Part shown: positions 4,761 through 41,227 of the stretch, one piece after another
Layout of the letters: every line of letters starts with the position of its first letter
Numbering within the stretch: position 1 is the stretch's first letter
DNA from: an uncultured Actinomycetes bacterium
GTDB taxonomy: Bacteria; Actinomycetota; Actinomycetes; Nanopelagicales; Nanopelagicaceae
DNA length: 61,752 nt
Assembly: GCA_903854185.1 (NCBI GenBank)
Contig: CAINVP010000022.1
Location: 1 to 61,752 of the forward strand
Reading direction: 5' to 3'
Program-made: the position numbers and the translations under genes
The notes under the pieces: model-generated
The model's input: the letters and a program-made list of their open reading frames with translations, nothing else
Told to the model about the DNA's origin: nothing
The model's database searches: none

Positions 4761-5273
4761 ATGAGCACAGCAACACTTCATACAAACCAAGGCGATATCG
4801 TCATTGAGCTCTTCGCCGATCAGGCGCCAAAGACCGTGGCGAACTTTGTTGAGCTTGCACAAGGAAAGCGAGAGTGGGTTGATCCACGGACCGGCCAGAA
4901 GTCTTCAGCTAATCTTTATGATGGCACCGTCTTTCACCGCGTCATTGCCGACTTCATGATTCAAGGCGGAGATCCACTTGGTACTGGCACCGGCGGACCT
5001 GGTTATAAGTTTGCTGATGAGTTCCATGGCGAACTCTCTTTTGACCGCCCATACCTTCTTGCAATGGCTAACTCTGGCCCAGGAACTAATGGCTCACAAT
5101 TCTTCATTACTGTGGCACCAACTTCTTGGTTGACACGTAAGCACTCCATCTTTGGTGAAGTGAAGGATCCTGCTTCACAAGCAATCGTCGATAAGATTTC
5201 CAAGGTCAAGACCGGTGGCGGAGACCGACCAATTGAAGCGGTTGTAATCAACTCGGTAACAATCTCAGAGTAA
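4761..5273 (+). CDS. Cyclophilin-type peptidyl-prolyl cis-trans isomerase
   Basis: This catalyses cis-trans isomerisation of X-Pro bonds during protein folding. The 170 residues form a single cyclophilin domain with no signal peptide, so a cytoplasmic enzyme is expected. Family motifs are clear: FHRVIADFMIQGGDP (about residues 58-72, holding the active-site Arg and Phe), LAMANSGPGTNGSQFFIT (about 97-114), and a His in LTRKHSIFGEV. AGGAG lies 6 bases before the ATG. It is followed after 7 bases by the secreted exosortase-substrate candidate. Confidence 0.95.
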   Translation: MSTATLHTNQGDIVIELFADQAPKTVANFVELAQGKREWVDPRTGQKSSANLYDGTVFHRVIADFMIQGGDPLGTGTGGPGYKFADEFHGELSFDRPYLLAMANSGPGTNGSQFFITVAPTSWLTRKHSIFGEVKDPASQAIVDKISKVKTGGGDRPIEAVVINSVTISE

Positions 5274-5280
5274 CTAGCCT

Positions 5281-6315
5281 ATGTTGAAGAGTAGACCTTT
5301 ACTTCTTACTGCCATTTTTGCACTATCGCTATTTACATGCACTGCGCCAGCACATGCTGATGCGCCAGCAACAGTAAAGGTCTGCTCATCATCGCCTCAG
5401 ATATTTGGCATACTTGCTAATACTATAAATCCACCATGTAACGCCCCTGGCTTATTTAGCTCTACCTGGCATCTCTCCAATCAAGTGATTGATACATCAA
5501 CTCTCACAATGAATGTCTGTATGAGTAGTGATCCCACTGTGCGCTACTTCAATGTGCAGAGCACCTGTCGATATTGGCAGAAGGCATACACCTACTCACG
5601 CAAAGCTAACTCCTCAGTACCGCCAACTCTTGGCCTGATTACTCCAGGTATTACCACTACTGATATTGCGCTAAGTGATATCCATTGGAATAGTGATGCA
5701 CCGGTAAAATTATTTACAGTGAAGGCAATCAAAGCAGATAGTGCAACCAACACACCGCTTATTCAGAGCCTGCCTGCTGCGACAACTGCCAGTGGAGTCG
5801 AACTTCCACAAGTGTTACATGTGACTGGTTTGCTGCCTTCGACTCGATATACCTTTACAGTTTCTGCCACATCGGTTGATGGCACAACAAACGATTCTCC
5901 GCCATCTACGACCATTACGACACAGGATCCACTGCCAGCCGCGCCAGAGATCACCCTCTCTTCAGGCAGTGAAAACGTTTTTGCAACCACACCTCTTGTG
6001 GGATACACCATTACCAATAGCGGTGGTCCAATAGACCACTTCACAATCTCCCCTTCACTGCCGATTTTCATCGGCCTCTCTTTCGATCCGACAACTGGCC
6101 TCATTGCAGGAACACCAAATGGGGAGATACCGACAACGCCTTACTCCATCACCGCTGTTAATGCTGGTGGAACATCCACGGCCATTTTCACTCTGACAGT
6201 CACACCTATCATTGCTGGGCCGACTGCCACCACAGTTGGAACCCTCCTCCTCCTCACCTTCGCATGGGCGCTCTTTGTACTTATTCAACGTAGAAGATTT
6301 GCACGCTCGCGTTAA
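5281..6315 (+). CDS. Secreted FN3/Ig-like protein with C-terminal sorting-signal-like tail
   Basis: 344 residues. A signal peptide (about 1-26) is followed by a Cys-containing region, a fibronectin III-like domain (about 118-215, with LPSTRYTFTVSATS) and a putative Ig domain (about 222-308, with GLSFDPTTGLIAGTP). The C-terminus has three parts: a short Pro/Gly/Thr segment (about 308-318), a hydrophobic helix (about 319-335) and a basic end with RRRFARSR (337-344). That layout is typical of substrates of sortase, exosortase and archaeosortase systems. The stop overlaps the start of the exosortase-like gene by one base, pointing to an enzyme-substrate pair. No known recognition motif (PEP, PGF, LPXTG) is visible before the helix. 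Confidence 0.7.
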   Translation: MLKSRPLLLTAIFALSLFTCTAPAHADAPATVKVCSSSPQIFGILANTINPPCNAPGLFSSTWHLSNQVIDTSTLTMNVCMSSDPTVRYFNVQSTCRYWQKAYTYSRKANSSVPPTLGLITPGITTTDIALSDIHWNSDAPVKLFTVKAIKADSATNTPLIQSLPAATTASGVELPQVLHVTGLLPSTRYTFTVSATSVDGTTNDSPPSTTITTQDPLPAAPEITLSSGSENVFATTPLVGYTITNSGGPIDHFTISPSLPIFIGLSFDPTTGLIAGTPNGEIPTTPYSITAVNAGGTSTAIFTLTVTPIIAGPTATTVGTLLLLTFAWALFVLIQRRRFARSR

Positions 6316-6833
6316 TGAGATTAAGTCGAGCACAACGTTTAGCGGCGCTGCGTCTCGTCCTATCGGCAGTTGGTGTTCTCGCAGGCTTAACTCTGCCGAT
6401 GTTCTGGCTTCGTAACTTTCATGTCGATGCCATCTCTTCTCTCTTACACTCAACAGGTGTTGCTACACATCGCACGGGCCACTTCATTTTCACAGTCAAC
6501 TCAACTCCAATAGAAGTTACCAATGCCTGCACCTGTATTGAGGTCGCCTTCGCTGCGCTGCCCCTCATCTATCGATCGCAGTGGCGGGTTAAGTGGTCTC
6601 TTCCACTACTAGCAGTAGCGATTGCGCTCTTTGAAGCGCTCAATATCGCTCGTCTCTATCTCGGTCTCTTCCTCTATGCGTATGGTCTCTCATGGAACGT
6701 TACACATGTCATTCCTTCTGGCGTCTTTTATTTTCTTATTCTTTACCCGGTGCTGAGAGTTGGTGGTTGGGTTCGGAGAGACCCCGTGAAGTACATGGTT
6801 CTCTCCCTACCGGATTCCCCCAAAGGCACCTAG
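6315..6833 (+). CDS. Exosortase/archaeosortase-like membrane transpeptidase
   Basis: This 172-residue multi-pass membrane protein has the core layout of the exosortase/archaeosortase family, cysteine transpeptidases that cut and re-anchor proteins at the outer face of the membrane. The predicted triad is visible: Cys72 in NACTCIE (Cys74 is an alternative), Arg113 in LNIARLYLG, and His131 in THVIPSG. The N-terminal helix (about 12-32) and the external segment before Cys72 also fit. It is shorter than most exosortases and close to the minimal catalytic core. It overlaps the upstream secreted gene (TAATG) and precedes a rhomboid protease by 13 bases. The activity is inferred from the motifs only. 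Confidence 0.72.
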   Translation: MRLSRAQRLAALRLVLSAVGVLAGLTLPMFWLRNFHVDAISSLLHSTGVATHRTGHFIFTVNSTPIEVTNACTCIEVAFAALPLIYRSQWRVKWSLPLLAVAIALFEALNIARLYLGLFLYAYGLSWNVTHVIPSGVFYFLILYPVLRVGGWVRRDPVKYMVLSLPDSPKGT

Positions 6834-6834
6834 T

Positions 6835-6840
6835 TATACT
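6835..6840 (+). promoter_or_regulatory. -10 box for leaderless rhomboid mRNA
   Basis: TATACT ends 6 bases before the ATG at 6847, so transcription would begin at or next to the start codon. No -35 match was seen. Confidence 0.5.
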
Positions 6841-6846
6841 CCTGGC

Positions 6847-7440
6847 ATGGCTTACACAATGAGGAATCGTTCGATAACAGATTCGCTGATTATTGTTATT
6901 GCCGGCTTCTTTATTGCCGCTCAATATCTCTATCCACATTTAGAAGAGCATCTCTTCCTTATAAAGAGAGCTCTCTTATCAGATGGAGCTCCTCATGGGA
7001 CCGCTTTCAATGAATGGTGGCGCCTCTTTACTGTGGCGCTCACCCATGCCAGTTGGATTCATTTGGTGATGAATATGCTCTTCTTTCACCAAATCGGCAC
7101 AGTAGTTGAAGCCTATTTTGGAAGAGTTAAATATCTACTCCTCTTAACTCTCTCACTTCTTGGGGCATCACTACTCTCAAATTACTTCGCCCTCGATAAC
7201 GTTCCGGCCGTTGGTGCATCAGGAATGATCTACGGCCTCTTCGGCGCCTTTATCGTCATCAGCAAGCGAGTAGGCGCAGATCAACGCTCTATCTACATCA
7301 CCCTTGCGCTCAACCTGGCAATCAGCTTCGGCATCCCAGGTATCGATTGGCACGCCCACATCGGCGGCCTGATCTCTGGTGCGTTAGTTGCTTACCTGCT
7401 CTTGCTTAACGGACCGAAGCAGCGCTTGCGCAACATCTAG
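6847..7440 (+). CDS. Rhomboid family intramembrane serine protease
   Basis: This 197-residue membrane protein has the six-helix rhomboid core, which cuts transmembrane helices within the bilayer. The catalytic dyad is Ser125 in GASG (123-126) and His171 in AHIGG. His72 and Asn76 in WIHLVMNM form the expected oxyanion side. An N-terminal helix at about 12-30 precedes the WWRLFT motif. The gene follows an exosortase-like gene by 13 bases but has its own TATACT box. Its 3' end overlaps the convergent iron-sulfur protein gene by 57 bases. The substrate is unknown. Confidence 0.92.
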   Translation: MAYTMRNRSITDSLIIVIAGFFIAAQYLYPHLEEHLFLIKRALLSDGAPHGTAFNEWWRLFTVALTHASWIHLVMNMLFFHQIGTVVEAYFGRVKYLLLLTLSLLGASLLSNYFALDNVPAVGASGMIYGLFGAFIVISKRVGADQRSIYITLALNLAISFGIPGIDWHAHIGGLISGALVAYLLLLNGPKQRLRNI

Positions 7441-9348
7441 CACTTCAATCGAACTCTCTTTAGTGGTGACGCCATCACTAATCATGATGCGACAGAATGG
7501 GCAACCAACCGCAACCTCTTCAACGCCGGTTGCAATCGCCTCTTCCACGCGGTTCATATTGATACGAGTACCAAGCTTCTCTTCCATCCACATGCGCCCG
7601 CCACCGCCGCCACAACAGAATGAGCGATCCTTATTACGAGGCATCTCAGTGATCTGAATGCCAGTCGATTGTAAAAGTTCGCGAGGTGGCTGATAAATCT
7701 GATTATGGCGGCCAAGGTAGCAAGGGTCGTGATAGGTAAGGCTCTTCGTTGTCTTAGGCGGAACTGGCTTTAACCGCTTGGTCTTCACGAGCTCATTAAG
7801 CAGTTGAGTATGGTGCATCATCTCAAGTTCAAAACCTTGTTGACCATAATCACGACCAATTGTTGTGAAGCAATGAGGGCAGGTGACAACAACCTTCTTC
7901 ACACCACGAGAACCAAAGGTCTCCTTTAAAGTCTCAATATTCTCCGCAGCCAGCATCTGATACAGGAATTCATTACCGGCACGACGTGCTGGATCACCGG
8001 TACATGTCTCACGCTTTCCAAGCACGCCAAACTTCACACCTGACATATGGAGCAGTTCTGCAACCGCCTTCGTTGTCTTCTTCGCTTTCTCTTCAAAGGC
8101 GCCGGCACAACCTACCCAGAACAAGTACTCCACATCCTCTGGAATCTCGCCATCGATGATGGTGATGGGGAAATCAACTTCTCTGGTCCAAGCATCGCGG
8201 TCGCTACGTGGTGAACCCCACGGGTTACCAGCGGTCTCAAGGTTTCTAAATGTGCCATTGAGCTCTGATGGGAATTCCGACTCCACCAATACCTGGTAGC
8301 GGCGCATATTCATGATGTGATCAACATGTTCAATATCGACTGGGCACTCTTGGACACATGCGCCACAGGAGGTACAAGACCAAAGAATTTCAGATGTTAT
8401 AGCTGAACCAACAAGAGGCTCTTCCGATGTGATGTTAGTCAGCGCGTGATCGCGCATCGCCATTATGAGGAGTTTTGGTGAGAGCGGCTTCTCTGTATGC
8501 CAAGCGGGGCATTGTGATTGGCAACGGCCACACTCAGTGCATGAGGCCATATCGAGTAGGCCTTTCCAGCTGATATCACCAGCTTTTCCAACACCAAAGA
8601 GATCATCATCTGCTGGATCATCAAAGTTAACTGGTTTACCGTGTGAGAGCATTTCCGCAACTGGACCAAGTGAGTTGCGCTTATCTGGATAGCGCTTAAA
8701 GAAGATATTAAATGGTGCAAGGAAACGGTGCCATGCAATACCCATGGTGAGGTTCATTGCGATAACAATGAACCAGGCCATCGAGATAACAATCTTCGTC
8801 GTAGCAACAATCTGAATAGCTCGATCATTATGCAAGTTATGGAGAAGGGTTACACAGATGACGATTGCCAGAATTGTTGCTTCAACGTAGTACGCCTTCC
8901 ACGAATAGGAGCCATAGAACCGGTTCCGCTGTGGAGGCTTGCGAAGTCGTTGTACTTGACGATAAATAATAAGGAAGGCAATTCCTAGACCTGTCATCAA
9001 AGTGATGAAGTTGGTCCAAAGTTTGTAAACTGCCCAGCTTCCAATAACAGGAAGTTCAAAGTGTGGATGTACAACTTCACCGTACGCCTGCACGAGTGTT
9101 CCGAAGAGGGAGACGAATCCCAACATGACGAACCAGTGTGCAACACCGCTCGCGGTGAATCGATTCATCTTTGTGTGGCCAAGAATTTCTTGGATCGCCC
9201 GCGTAAGCCGCTTGCCCTTATTCTCAAAGCGAGTTGGGTCTGGTTGACCACTGCTGATGATGGAGTAGATCTCCCGGGCCTTCACTGTGATGAGGACGAG
9301 GGCAACGGCGGTGATGCCATATGCGATAGCGGCGAGCAAGAAAGTCAT
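7384..9348 (-). CDS. Membrane-bound 4Fe-4S / CCG-domain oxidoreductase (HdrD/GlpC-like)
   Basis: 654 residues. The N-terminal 230 residues hold about five transmembrane helices resembling a nitrate reductase gamma or HdrE-type cytochrome b unit. Two ferredoxin-type cluster motifs follow: CTECGRCQSQCP and CTSCGACVQECP. Two CCG (cysteine-rich) domains end the protein, seen as HCFTTIGRDYG/HDPCYLGRHN and CCGGGGGRMW. This architecture is common in Actinobacteria and is annotated as heterodisulfide reductase-related or as an electron-transfer Fe-S protein. It probably moves electrons between a soluble donor and the quinone pool; the partner is unknown. No flavin subunit is adjacent. A TAACCT box lies 6 bases before the ATG. 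The 3' end overlaps the rhomboid gene. Confidence 0.88.
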   Translation of the reverse strand: MTFLLAAIAYGITAVALVLITVKAREIYSIISSGQPDPTRFENKGKRLTRAIQEILGHTKMNRFTASGVAHWFVMLGFVSLFGTLVQAYGEVVHPHFELPVIGSWAVYKLWTNFITLMTGLGIAFLIIYRQVQRLRKPPQRNRFYGSYSWKAYYVEATILAIVICVTLLHNLHNDRAIQIVATTKIVISMAWFIVIAMNLTMGIAWHRFLAPFNIFFKRYPDKRNSLGPVAEMLSHGKPVNFDDPADDDLFGVGKAGDISWKGLLDMASCTECGRCQSQCPAWHTEKPLSPKLLIMAMRDHALTNITSEEPLVGSAITSEILWSCTSCGACVQECPVDIEHVDHIMNMRRYQVLVESEFPSELNGTFRNLETAGNPWGSPRSDRDAWTREVDFPITIIDGEIPEDVEYLFWVGCAGAFEEKAKKTTKAVAELLHMSGVKFGVLGKRETCTGDPARRAGNEFLYQMLAAENIETLKETFGSRGVKKVVVTCPHCFTTIGRDYGQQGFELEMMHHTQLLNELVKTKRLKPVPPKTTKSLTYHDPCYLGRHNQIYQPPRELLQSTGIQITEMPRNKDRSFCCGGGGGRMWMEEKLGTRINMNRVEEAIATGVEEVAVGCPFCRIMISDGVTTKESSIEVLDVAQALLRSVKQEQVSN

Positions 9349-9354
9349 GCGGCT

Positions 9355-9360
9355 AGGTTA
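9355..9360 (-). promoter_or_regulatory. -10 box for leaderless Fe-S oxidoreductase mRNA
   Basis: TAACCT on the minus strand ends 6 bases before the start codon at 9348. Confidence 0.45.
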
Positions 9361-9470
9361 GAGCGTGGCGGCCCAATTCGGGAGTATTCACGGGAGCGGC
9401 ATGAGGCCTGGAAAATCTTGGGGGAGGCGGGAATAAAGCCCCCTGGTCTTCGGTTGAATGAGTACTAGCA

Positions 9471-9491
9471 CTTGAGTCGAGTCGGCTCAAT
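9471..9491 (+). promoter_or_regulatory. HAIR-like HspR operator, upstream copy
   Basis: CTTGAGT, 7 bases, GCTCAAT. The left arm is a perfect match to the HspR-associated inverted repeat CTTGAGT-N7-ACTCAAG; the right arm differs at both ends. It lies just upstream of the dnaK -35 box. Confidence 0.7.
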
Positions 9492-9493
9492 CT

Positions 9494-9514
9494 TTTGACA
9501 CAACCCGACTCAAG
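9494..9514 (+). promoter_or_regulatory. HAIR-like HspR operator, downstream copy
   Basis: TTTGACA, 7 bases, ACTCAAG. The right arm is a perfect HAIR half-site; the left arm is degenerate. This copy covers the -35 box, so HspR binding should block RNA polymerase. Confidence 0.65.
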
Positions 9515-9523
9515 GGCAAGAAT
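9495..9523 (+). promoter_or_regulatory. dnaK operon promoter
   Basis: A consensus -35 TTGACA (9495-9500) is followed after 17 bases by AAGAAT (9518-9523), a fair -10. It overlaps the downstream HAIR box. A 5' UTR of about 48 bases with AAGGAG 8 bases before the dnaK ATG would result. Confidence 0.6.
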
Positions 9524-9577
9524 TCAGTCATAGCCCGACATAAAAAGGGCTGAACTACCCCGAAAAGGAGCACCACC

Positions 9578-11401
9578 ATGGCCAAGGCCGTAGGAATCGA
9601 TCTAGGAACTACCAATAGCTGCGTAAGCGTTCTCGAAGGCGGCGAACCAACAGTTATCGCCAATGCCGAGGGAGCTCGCACCACCCCATCCATCGTTGCA
9701 TTTGCGAAGAGTGGCGAGGTTCTCGTTGGAGAGGTCGCTAAGCGACAATCAGTAACAAATGTGGATCGCACCATCCGCTCGGTGAAGCGCCACATGGGCA
9801 CAAACTGGAATATCGATATTGATAATAAGAAGTACACCGCACAGGAGATCTCTGCGCGCATCTTGATGAAGTTGAAGCGCGATGCAGAGTCTTATCTCGG
9901 TGACACAGTCACAGAGGCTGTTATCACTGTTCCGGCGTACTTCAATGACGCACAACGTCAAGCAACAAAAGAGGCTGGCGAAATCGCAGGACTTAATGTG
10001 CTCCGTGTTGTTAACGAGCCAACAGCGGCTGCGCTCGCTTACGGCCTTGATAAAGGCGATAAAGAACAGACGATTCTTGTCTTCGACCTTGGCGGCGGAA
10101 CCTTCGACGTATCACTCCTAGAAATCGGAGATGGTGTTGTTGAGGTAAAGGCAACCAATGGCGATAACCACCTTGGTGGAGATGATTGGGATCAGGCGGT
10201 AGTTGATTACCTCATTAAGACCTTCCAATCACAACACGGCATTGATCTCTCGAAGGATAAGATGGCGTTGCAACGTATCCGTGAAGCTGCGGAGAAGGCA
10301 AAGATTGAACTCTCATCATCACAGCAGACTTCAATCAACCTTCCTTACATCACGGTTGATGCAGAGAAGAATCCATTGTTCTTAGATGAGACTCTCACAC
10401 GTGCAAAGTTCCAGGAGATGACAGCAGACCTGCTCGAGCGTTGCAAGAAGCCATTCCAATCCGTATTGAAAGATGCTGGAATTCCAGTTGCCGATATCGA
10501 CCATGTCGTTCTTGTCGGTGGCTCAACGCGTATGCCTGCTGTTGTAGATCTCGTTCGCGATCTCACCGGCGGCAAGGAGCCGAACAAGGGTGTAAATCCT
10601 GATGAGGTTGTCGCAGTTGGCGCAGCACTTCAAGCTGGTGTTCTTAAGGGTGAAGTGAAGGATGTTCTTCTCCTCGATGTCACACCACTCTCACTTGGAA
10701 TCGAAACCAAGGGTGGCGTCATGACAAAGTTGATCGAACGTAACACCACCATCCCAACAAAGCGCTCTGAAATTTTCACAACCGCTGATGACAATCAACC
10801 AGCTGTGCAGATTCAAGCTTTCCAAGGTGAGCGCGAAATGGCAGCGTATAACAAGCGATTAGGCATGTTCGAACTCACTGGCATTGCACCTGCACCACGT
10901 GGAATTCCACAGATTGAAGTGACCTTCGATATCGATGCAAATGGAATCGTCCATGTCTCTGCAAAGGATCTTGGAACCGGTAAAGAGCAGTCGATGACCA
11001 TCACAGGTGGCTCTGCGCTCTCTAAGGATGAGATTGATCGGATGATGAAGGATGCTGAGGCACACGCTGATGAAGATAAGCAGCGTCGTGAAGAAGCAGA
11101 GATCCGCAATACAGCTGACTCACTTGTCTATCAGACAGAGAAGTTCCTGAAGGATAATGAGGATAAGTTCACTGAGGGCGAGAACGCTGAGAAGAAGGCA
11201 GAGTTGCTCACCGCAATCGCTGATCTCAAGAGCGCCCTAGATGGTACAGATACTTCAAGCATTAAATCGGCAACCGATAAGGTAAATGAACTTTCACAGC
11301 AACTCGGCGCCGCACTGTATGCCGCAAATGCTGCTGCATCATCAGAGACCCCGACGGCTGATGATGGCGTTGAAGATGCCGAGATTGTGGAGAACGAGTA
11401 A
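9578..11401 (+). CDS. dnaK: Molecular chaperone DnaK (Hsp70)
   Basis: This ATP-dependent chaperone binds exposed hydrophobic segments of proteins; DnaJ stimulates its ATPase and GrpE exchanges its nucleotide. It has 607 residues, the usual actinobacterial length. The ATPase domain begins with [11 protein letters not shown] and contains VPAYFND and the phosphate-binding [12 protein letters not shown]. It continues through the [10 protein letters not shown] motif to the linker [16 protein letters not shown]. The substrate-binding domain and helical lid follow, ending in an acidic tail. It is the first gene of a dnaK-grpE-dnaJ-hspR operon. A HAIR-covered promoter lies upstream and AAGGAG is 8 bases before the ATG. 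Confidence 0.98.
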
Positions 11402-19627: not shown

Positions 19628-21649
19628 ATGTCGACCCCGCTGCCATACCCGAGCGCCCCTGCCCAGGCAGATACCCGGAGCGTTCTATCGTATCCAGCAT
19701 TTCGACGGCTCTGGAACTCTATGGCCTTCTCCTCCTTTGGCGATTGGCTTGGCCTACTAGCCACAACTGCGCTCGCTCAACAGTTAGCTGGCGGCAACTA
19801 CTCCAAGGCAAATTTCGCGATCGCTGGCGTCTTCATCGTTCGACTTCTACCCGCAGTCCTTCTTGGTCCAATTGCCGGCGTCTTTGCCGACCGCTTCGAC
19901 CGCCGCAGGTTGATGATTCTCTGCGACATCCTCCGCTTCTTTCTCTATCTTTCCATTCCACTTGTGGGAAATTACTTCTGGCTCTACACAGCTACCGTCC
20001 TCGTTGAAGCGGTCACTCTCTTCTGGTCGCCTGCGAAAGAGGCATCAGTTCCGAATCTGATTCCAAAGAATAAATTGGAATCTGCAAATCAAGTGACGCT
20101 TCTAGCAAGTTATGGCACGGCACCGATTGCGGCGATTGTCTTCTCGCTCCTCGCACTCGTGGCTGGACCACTTTCGAAGGCCTTCTCAGAGCGTTATGCA
20201 TCAACAGCAAATATTGCGCTCTATATCGATGCGCTCTCATTCCTCTATACCGCTTGGGTTGTCTTTGGTATTAAGGGTCTCCCTAAGGGACCGGCAGTTG
20301 GCGCCAAAGGCGAGAACATTGGTAAATCTCTTCTCGGTGGCTTCTCCTTTGTCCGTAAATCACAAGTCATCAATGGGCTGGTTATTGGAATGCTCGGCGC
20401 CTTCTTCGCAGCCGGAGCGGTCATTGGACTTGCGAGAACATTTGTCGGTGACCTTAAAGCCGGAGATGCCGCTTATGGTGTTCTCTTCGGCTCCGTCTTT
20501 ACTGGTCTCGCTCTTGGAATTTCACTTGGGCCAAAGATCTTCTCTCAATTCTCCCGTCGACGTATCTTTGGCGCCTCATTAACTATCTCATCAATATTTC
20601 TCATCTTGCTCTCTACTATTACTAATCTGGTTCTCGCACTTATAGTCACTATTATTTTGGGAGCCTTTGCTGGATTAAGTTGGGTTACTGGATTTACCAT
20701 GCTCGGTCTCGAGGTTGAAGATGAGATGCGTGGTCGAGTATTTGCCTTCGTCCAATCTCTAATTCGCATCAGCTTGGTACTCGTTTTAGCTATTGCACCA
20801 GTAGTTGCAGCAGCTATCGGTAGACACTCATTCCAGTACAGCAGCTATACCGTTACCTACAACGGTGCTGCCTTTACGCTCTTATTAGCAGGTGTAATAG
20901 GCACTGCTGTTGGCGTAATTAGCTATCACCGGATGAAGGATCGCCCATCAATCTCACTCTGGTCAGATATTCGTAACGCCTTCCGTGGTGAACTCGGTGG
21001 TATCACTGGGGCAACACATGCCGGAATCTTTATCTCCTTCGAAGGTGGCGAGGGTTCTGGAAAATCAACCCAGACAAAGTTGCTCGGTGAATATTTGGAA
21101 TCAATCGGTGAGACCGTTGTACTCACTCGCGAACCAGGTGGTAGCCCGATTGGAGTTCAACTTCGACAGATTCTGCTCGCGAATGAGACCGGTGTTATTA
21201 GCCCTCGTGCAGAAGCGTTGATGTATGCCGCAGATCGTGCACATCATGTCTTCGCTGTTATTCGTCCAGCGCTAGATCGTGGTGAAATTGTTATTACTGA
21301 TCGCTACCTCGACTCATCCATTGCATATCAAGGAGCTGGCCGAGTGCTCCAGCCATCGGAGGTCGCACGTATCTCCCGCTGGGCAACAGAGAGCCTTACC
21401 CCGACACTCACCTTTATTATGGATATTCCTGCTGAGATTGGCCTTGGTCGCCTCGAATCACAGGATCGTTTGGAATCAGAGCCGTTAGCATTTCATGAAA
21501 GAGTCCGTCGGGAATTTCTAAATCTGGCGAATATTGATCCAGAACGCTATGCCGTTATTGATGCAACGCAGAGCGTTGATGCGATTCACGCCCAGATTAA
21601 AGAGCGGGTAAACCACCTTCCGTTACTTAAAATTAATAAGAAGAATTAG
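19628..21649 (+). CDS. tmk: MFS transporter fused to thymidylate kinase
   Basis: One frame of 673 residues encodes two proteins. Residues about 15-440 are a 12-helix major facilitator, with ADRFDRRRLM in the first cytoplasmic loop. Residues about 466-670 are a complete dTMP kinase: P-loop FEGGEGSGKST (472-481 for the core), TREPGGSPIG, and ITDRYLDSSIAYQGAGR, the DR-x-Y motif of Tmk. Tmk makes dTDP from dTMP and is essential. The next gene, holB, is the usual partner of tmk. Such MFS-Tmk fusions are known from Actinobacteria. No stop or frameshift separates the halves, and the linker is short. The transported substrate is unknown. Confidence 0.92.
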   Translation: MSTPLPYPSAPAQADTRSVLSYPAFRRLWNSMAFSSFGDWLGLLATTALAQQLAGGNYSKANFAIAGVFIVRLLPAVLLGPIAGVFADRFDRRRLMILCDILRFFLYLSIPLVGNYFWLYTATVLVEAVTLFWSPAKEASVPNLIPKNKLESANQVTLLASYGTAPIAAIVFSLLALVAGPLSKAFSERYASTANIALYIDALSFLYTAWVVFGIKGLPKGPAVGAKGENIGKSLLGGFSFVRKSQVINGLVIGMLGAFFAAGAVIGLARTFVGDLKAGDAAYGVLFGSVFTGLALGISLGPKIFSQFSRRRIFGASLTISSIFLILLSTITNLVLALIVTIILGAFAGLSWVTGFTMLGLEVEDEMRGRVFAFVQSLIRISLVLVLAIAPVVAAAIGRHSFQYSSYTVTYNGAAFTLLLAGVIGTAVGVISYHRMKDRPSISLWSDIRNAFRGELGGITGATHAGIFISFEGGEGSGKSTQTKLLGEYLESIGETVVLTREPGGSPIGVQLRQILLANETGVISPRAEALMYAADRAHHVFAVIRPALDRGEIVITDRYLDSSIAYQGAGRVLQPSEVARISRWATESLTPTLTFIMDIPAEIGLGRLESQDRLESEPLAFHERVRREFLNLANIDPERYAVIDATQSVDAIHAQIKERVNHLPLLKINKKN

Positions 21650-40096: not shown

Positions 40097-41227
40097 ATGA
40101 AGATGACGACCACCTTTGCAAAGGTCACCCTAGGCTTTGTTGCCGGAGCGATGACCGTCGGCGGGATCGCAACAGCAGCTGTGACTCTCACCTCCACTTC
40201 GACCGTGGTCTGTTCCGATAATCGAACTGGCGCTCTATACCAGAGTAAGAATGGCGCCTGTGCCTCTACTCGCACCGCACTCAATATCACCAGCGGTCAG
40301 GGCTCAATTAAAACGATCGTCGCAAAAGTTTCACCAGCTGTTGTAACGGTAGAAGTAACAACTCCTTCCGGTGGTGATACTGGCTCTGGCTCTATCATCC
40401 AGACAACATCTACTTACTCTTACATTCTTACCAACAACCATGTGATCGATGCGGCGATGAATGGTGGCGGAACAGTTTCCGTGGAACTCAATAACGGCGA
40501 CTCACTGGACGCAACTATCGTCGGTCGCGATGTTAATTACGACTTGGCAGTTATTAAGGTGGATAAGGGGAATCTTCCGACAATTGCTATCGGCGATTCA
40601 ACGGCGATAGCTATCGGTGATCCGGTCATCGCTTTTGGTTCACCTCTTGGGCTTGCTGGCACCGTTACAACAGGAATCGTCTCCTCACTCAATCGCCCCG
40701 TCACAACCCAACAGACGGGTGGCGTGAACTCTTACGTCGATGCGATTCAGACCGATGCCGCAATTAATCCCGGAAACTCAGGCGGACCGCTGACCGATGC
40801 TTCAGGAAATATCGTTGGAGTTAACTCTGCGATTGCTTCTACCGCTACCGGAAGTTCGGGTCAGGCCGGAAATATTGGACTTGGCTTTGCTATTCCAATC
40901 AATGAGGCGAAGCGCGTCTATACCGAGATTATTACCAATCCAAACCATCAAGCCGCCCGGCCATTCTTAGGCGTCGCCTTTGATAACAACTACACCGGTA
41001 AGGGCGCGAAGGTGCTCTCACTTGTTGCTGGCGAGGCGGCGGAGAAGGCTGGTATTCCAGTCGGAGCGGTGATTACAACTATCGATGGCGTTCGCATTCC
41101 GGATGCAGAGACGGCAATCGTGCGGATCCGCTCCCATGCACCTGGTGAGAGCGTCAAGATTCTTGCCACACTCGCTGATGGTTCAACGAAGAGCTTTACC
41201 GTTGTGCTGGGTAGCACCTACAACTAA
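40097..41227 (+). CDS. Membrane-anchored HtrA/DegP-type serine protease
   Basis: 376 residues. An N-terminal hydrophobic helix (about 8-32) anchors or exports the protein. The trypsin-like domain has the full triad: His115 in LTNNHVID, Asp149 in NYDLAVIK, Ser228 in NPGNSGGPL. One PDZ domain follows at about 285-370. It degrades or refolds damaged proteins outside the membrane. A GAAAGG site about 8 bases before the ATG fits. The stop overlaps the convergent tryptophan dioxygenase gene by 4 bases. Confidence 0.93.
   Translation: MKMTTTFAKVTLGFVAGAMTVGGIATAAVTLTSTSTVVCSDNRTGALYQSKNGACASTRTALNITSGQGSIKTIVAKVSPAVVTVEVTTPSGGDTGSGSIIQTTSTYSYILTNNHVIDAAMNGGGTVSVELNNGDSLDATIVGRDVNYDLAVIKVDKGNLPTIAIGDSTAIAIGDPVIAFGSPLGLAGTVTTGIVSSLNRPVTTQQTGGVNSYVDAIQTDAAINPGNSGGPLTDASGNIVGVNSAIASTATGSSGQAGNIGLGFAIPINEAKRVYTEIITNPNHQAARPFLGVAFDNNYTGKGAKVLSLVAGEAAEKAGIPVGAVITTIDGVRIPDAETAIVRIRSHAPGESVKILATLADGSTKSFTVVLGSTYN

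Follow-up and report, generated by a model that had tools for sequence, protein, structure and literature searches.

Introduction

Exosortases of the EpsH/XrtA family carry a Cys/Arg/His triad. Among the archaeosortases, mutagenesis has shown that Cys173 and Arg214 of ArtA are critical (PMC9263693), and the encoding of an enzyme together with a dedicated target is a known pattern among protein-sorting systems of this general kind (PMC3237569). Here we analyse a window of 61,752 nucleotides from the genome of a freshwater actinobacterium of the Nanopelagicaceae, in which a small exosortase-like enzyme is encoded directly downstream of a secreted protein with a sorted-protein type of tail. We consider it very likely that the two constitute a dedicated exosortase/archaeosortase-type sorting system, consisting of one enzyme and one substrate, that reads a Gly-Pro signal. 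This explanation draws on homology, on the catalytic triad and its spacing, on the pairing of the two genes, on the Gly-Pro tails, on the finding of a single strong tail match per genome and on the insertion of the pair at its locus; we infer that the substrate is cleaved, where the cut falls, what the acceptor is and what the surface protein does.

Results

The substrate gene (5281..6315, forward strand) encodes a surface protein of 344 residues that is exported, is FN3/Ig-like and ends in a tripartite tail, as judged from the ORF, a Pfam fn3 match and an orthologue. It is followed on the same strand by the gene for the mini-exosortase (6315..6833; 172 residues), the predicted dedicated sorting enzyme, which was identified through a match to TIGR04178 and through hhalign. 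The two ORFs share one base (TAATG), and the overlap and coordinates given in the preliminary description of this stretch are correct. The substrate begins with a Sec signal peptide (residues 1-26, ...PAHA/DAP; 5281..5358, forward strand) that was predicted by eye, and the N-terminus is hydrophobic in all five homologues. Next comes a region with four cysteines (C35, C53, C80 and C96; 5368..5610, forward strand) in which a 2-Cys motif occurs twice; alignment and ectodomain BLAST indicate that this region is also present in two of the pairs from a second genus. It precedes a fibronectin type III domain (residues 134-211; 5680..5913, forward strand; Pfam PF00041, 27 bits) and a putative Ig (He_PIG-like) domain (residues ~222-310; 5944..6210, forward strand), the latter suggested by He_PIG in the orthologue and by matches to Ig-type repeats of the genus. 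The orthologue, from a sister genome (G030), is about 59-60% identical.

The tail of the substrate (IIAGPTATTVGTLLLLTFAWALFVLIQRRRFARSR) has the three-part form that had been recognized beforehand, and consists of an AGPT signal (residues 312-315; 6214..6225, forward strand), whose G313 and P314 are invariant in alignments of the five homologues, a C-terminal transmembrane helix (residues ~319-335; 6235..6285, forward strand) with a Kyte-Doolittle mean of 2.48 over 17 residues, and the basic end RRRFARSR (6289..6312, forward strand), evident in the sequence. Two proteins at other loci in the same genomes, L059 (G000:C48) and L060 (G030:C66), share ~27% identity with the N-terminal 200 residues of the substrate and are without the GP tail, so that the tail acts as a suffix that a protein may or may not carry. 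All other matches to the substrate within the genus reflected FN3/Ig-domain or N-terminal similarity, and the tail was absent wherever the ends of these proteins could be seen. We also note that a trypsin/HtrA-like protease encoded at 40097-41227 of the window has an N-terminal 2-Cys motif (VCSDNRTGALYQSKNGAC) that resembles the N-terminal repeats of the substrate.

The enzyme has C72, the predicted nucleophile (6528..6530, forward strand), in the motif CT[SC]I[DE], R113 (6651..6653, forward strand) in the motif NxxRLxLG, and H131 (6705..6707, forward strand) in the motif H-x-[IV]-PSG. These are the residues named in the preliminary description, and each is invariant in the five homologues, the Arg lying 41 residues past the Cys and the His 18 residues past the Arg in 5/5; both triad and spacing are thus unchanged in an alignment in which identity between lineages is 24-40%. 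Enzyme length across the family is about 156-177 residues. An exosortase-like identity had been proposed from the pattern of these residues, and a match to exosortase models was indeed obtained: the window enzyme matches NCBIfam TIGR04178 weakly (22.4 bits, E 1e-4; curated cut-off 23), the orthologue in G030 exceeds the cut-off (26.3 bits against 23), and all five homologues match the model (best E 2.5e-5). Moreover, when a profile of the five enzymes was aligned by hhalign with a profile of eight other actinobacterial exosortases, the P value was 1.3e-6 and the Cys, N..R and His positions were in register. Searched against Pfam, the window enzyme gave no match, and it fell under the NCBIfam subfamily cut-offs for XrtY (22.9 bits against 160), ArtH (20 against 200), ArtD (17.8 against 125) and XrtX (15.7 against 170). 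An AlphaFold2 model of the enzyme from five sequences was of middling confidence (pLDDT 72, pTM 0.64), and comparison with solved structures, either by sequence or by the fold of this model, returned no match. The enzyme is very probably a member of the exosortase/archaeosortase superfamily, outside the named subfamilies with which it was compared.

The enzyme is present in only two of the 32 genomes of the genus, those of the host and of G030 (the MAG Jr-25may17-29), and in 5/296 genomes of the family, which fall in two genera; the three more distant homologues are all in the second genus. A search of contigs with the window enzyme alone found no relatives, and a search with profile A1 found the sister MAG only. 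A class-wide search of 395 genomes with a two-sequence profile yielded no further relative of the enzyme, and the cassette was not found in the phages, plasmids or viral contigs searched.

The segments that precede the helix in the five tails are AGPT, AGPT, IGPT, AGPG and AGPG, and an alignment of the tails has among its invariant positions the G-P that directly precedes the helix and a basic residue close to the terminus. The five substrates did not match the NCBIfam sorting-signal models (PEP-CTERM, PGF-CTERM and others) at E values up to 10, in a search whose HMMER filters could discard very short weak matches. Both results support the earlier suggestion that the recognition type may be new, and the common Gly-Pro mark suggests a new recognition signal within a known kind of sorting system.

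The tail is a genuine feature, and its architecture has a low background. ORFs were tested for an architecture consisting of a signal-peptide-like start, a single C-terminal helix and a basic end; in a background sample of ~261 kb of the host genome (214 gene proxies, ~18% of a genome that is 86% complete, the window included) the architecture was found in 3/214, namely the substrate and two ORFs resembling short pieces of polytopic membrane proteins, and among 162 gene proxies at related loci it was found in just the three predicted substrates. A profile of the tails gave one strong match (E < 1e-15) per genome, solely in the five genomes that encode the enzyme; because these five tails are also the ones that made up the profile, its matches show that similar tails are absent elsewhere and are no independent test. 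The next best match in the remaining 291 genomes had an E value of 7e-4, and the weak matches (E 7e-4 and above), where inspected, were out-of-context or membrane ORFs that were rejected as GP tails. That each of the five genomes has a single strong match, a count limited by genome incompleteness, agrees with the pattern of one enzyme and one substrate that had been described for this locus, and the mini-exosortase probably cuts solely the C-terminal tail of the neighbouring protein. An alternative is that the enzyme serves several proteins in trans and that its neighbour is one target among them. Exosortases often have many targets (PMC3237569), and the architecture test covered ~18% of a genome that is itself 86% complete; nevertheless, the tail profile singles out one protein in each genome, and in dedicated systems, such as rhombosortase, the genes for enzyme and target typically lie side by side (PMC3237569); we regard this alternative as unlikely.

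Wherever the enzyme is encoded (five genomes), it is directly preceded, on the same strand, by the gene for an exported protein that finishes in a helix and a basic end. The expectation that an FN3/Ig protein with such a tail always precedes the enzyme therefore held for the tail (5/5) but not for the ectodomain, which is of the FN3/Ig type in 4/5 and different in the fifth. Given an architecture background of ~1% and agreement in about three lineages, the pairing is unlikely to be due to chance; we note that this is a small set, of five homologues and perhaps three lineages. The pair in G582 is the most telling as regards the signal: the enzyme there shares 40% identity with its counterparts in G535 and G530, while the ectodomain of its partner has no meaningful BLAST similarity to the partners in those two genomes and the GP tail is retained, as would be expected if the enzyme reads the tail and not the rest of the protein. 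A rival view takes the tail for a common type of membrane anchor and the adjacent gene product for a membrane protein with another function, in which case the adjacency would be coincidental or structural. The weak family match of the window copy leaves some room for such a reading, as does the fact that protease function is a prediction, but the invariance of the triad and its spacing at low identity, the pairing in 5/5 against a background near 1%, and the replacement of the G582 ectodomain with conservation of its GP tail all speak against it and make it quite improbable.

The substrate and enzyme genes lie between ppiA (4761-5273), which is 5' of the substrate gene, and a rhomboid gene (6847-7440), which is 3' of the mini-exosortase gene. 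The pair is missing from 24 sister genomes, where ppiA directly adjoins the rhomboid gene, and thus the pair represents an insertion in the host, a cassette whose full extent is 5274..6846 (forward strand). The rhomboid gene itself is probably not part of the cassette. It is conceivable that the rhomboid protease processes the tail of the substrate, since its gene adjoins the cassette and its product matches the rhombosortase model (E 1e-14, 54.7 against a cut-off of 84), but the gene sits beside ppiA in the 24 sister genomes and is not next to the pair in the second genus. The synteny in the sister genomes led us to reject the rhomboid as the processing enzyme, a role for which we hold its chances to be very small. 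Elsewhere in the window, a single ORF (19628-21649) appears, on a by-eye reading, to fuse an MFS-type transporter to a thymidylate kinase.

The order ppiA-substrate-enzyme is common to the host and to G030, whose contig stops within the enzyme gene, so that the downstream flank is not visible. The ppiA fragment is 95% identical between the two, whereas the enzymes and substrates are 64% and 60% identical, respectively, with dN/dS values of ~0.21 and ~0.14 (dS near saturation); the enzyme and substrate genes are thus fast-changing yet under purifying selection between the sister copies. In the second genus, according to by-eye annotation, a glycosyltransferase-like gene lies ahead of two of the pairs, and a polysaccharide-pyruvyl-transferase-like gene comes after the third. 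With pairs at differing genomic settings, the enzyme and substrate appear to travel or persist as a unit. That the cassette is an artefact of assembly or binning is scarcely credible: the source assembly is fragmented and incomplete, but the sister MAG has the same gene order with a cassette far more diverged than its ppiA, and the GC content of the cassette resembles that of the neighbouring genes.

Discussion

We propose that the two genes encode a dedicated sorting system that would work as follows. The substrate would be exported via Sec, and its C-terminal helix would hold it in the membrane, leaving the basic end on the cytoplasmic side. The neighbouring mini-exosortase could then recognize the substrate by the Gly-Pro segment immediately before the helix and, if it acts as archaeosortases and exosortases do, C72, helped by R113 and H131, would cut near this segment. 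The new C-terminus would probably be transferred to a lipid or envelope acceptor, and the FN3/Ig part would be left on the cell surface.

What is new here is the subfamily, the small size of the enzyme, the GP signal and the occurrence in a freshwater lineage. We think it likely that the family represents a new exosortase subfamily with a Gly-Pro signal that occurs sporadically in one streamlined freshwater actinobacterial family, and that it persists or spreads as a two-gene cassette in which the displayed part is exchangeable and the tail is kept. Our literature search found no paper linking exosortases with Nanopelagicales, and the literature searched mentions no exosortase system for these small-genome freshwater actinobacteria. 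A minimal, self-contained pair, comprising an enzyme of ~156-177 residues and one substrate, allows direct testing of exosortase specificity, and the fact that an ectodomain was exchanged in nature while the tail was kept indicates where the recognition element lies: in G-P, helix and basic end. The Gram-positive host also raises the question of the acceptor to which exosortases join their substrates.

The mini-exosortase family shows weak sequence matches to exosortases X and Y and archaeosortases D, E and H of NCBIfam, but the window enzyme, with 16-23 bits against cut-offs of 125-200, is not a member of the named subfamilies. Closer at hand, the actinobacterial exosortases in G095, G247, G238 and G071 likewise have nearby the gene for an exported protein whose tail is tripartite; these enzymes are distant, however, and their tails carry an x-Ala-Pro type of segment (e.g. 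QAPLFG, LVAPGA) rather than Gly-Pro. Near the exosortase at one such locus, L121 (G238:C40), positions 8094-10595 encode three consecutive similar proteins with tails of the form VAPAVALG...RRR, possibly a small multi-target array. At another locus, L096 (G206:C116), the ORF at 1114-1818 encodes a distant actinobacterial exosortase whose frame starts with LPYTG, a helix and RR, resembling an LPXTG sortase signal.

Rhombosortase/GlyGly-CTERM pairs offer the same arrangement of a single enzyme and a single target side by side (PMC3237569), although rhombosortase is an unrelated serine protease. With the exosortase EpsH/XrtA and PEP-CTERM, the system described here has in common a tripartite tail and a match to the superfamily signature TIGR04178, just under the cut-off in the window copy, but PEP-CTERM systems are found in Gram-negative bacteria, usually have many targets and employ a larger enzyme, for which eight helices are predicted (PMC3237569). 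The ArtA/PGF-CTERM system of Haloferax volcanii is alike in that the catalytic Cys and Arg are 41 residues apart and in that the tail is made up of a signal, then a helix, then a basic stretch (PMC9263693). It differs in its third residue, which is Arg253 in ArtA and a His in the mini-exosortase, in its signal, which is PGF instead of GP, and in that ArtA has further substrates.
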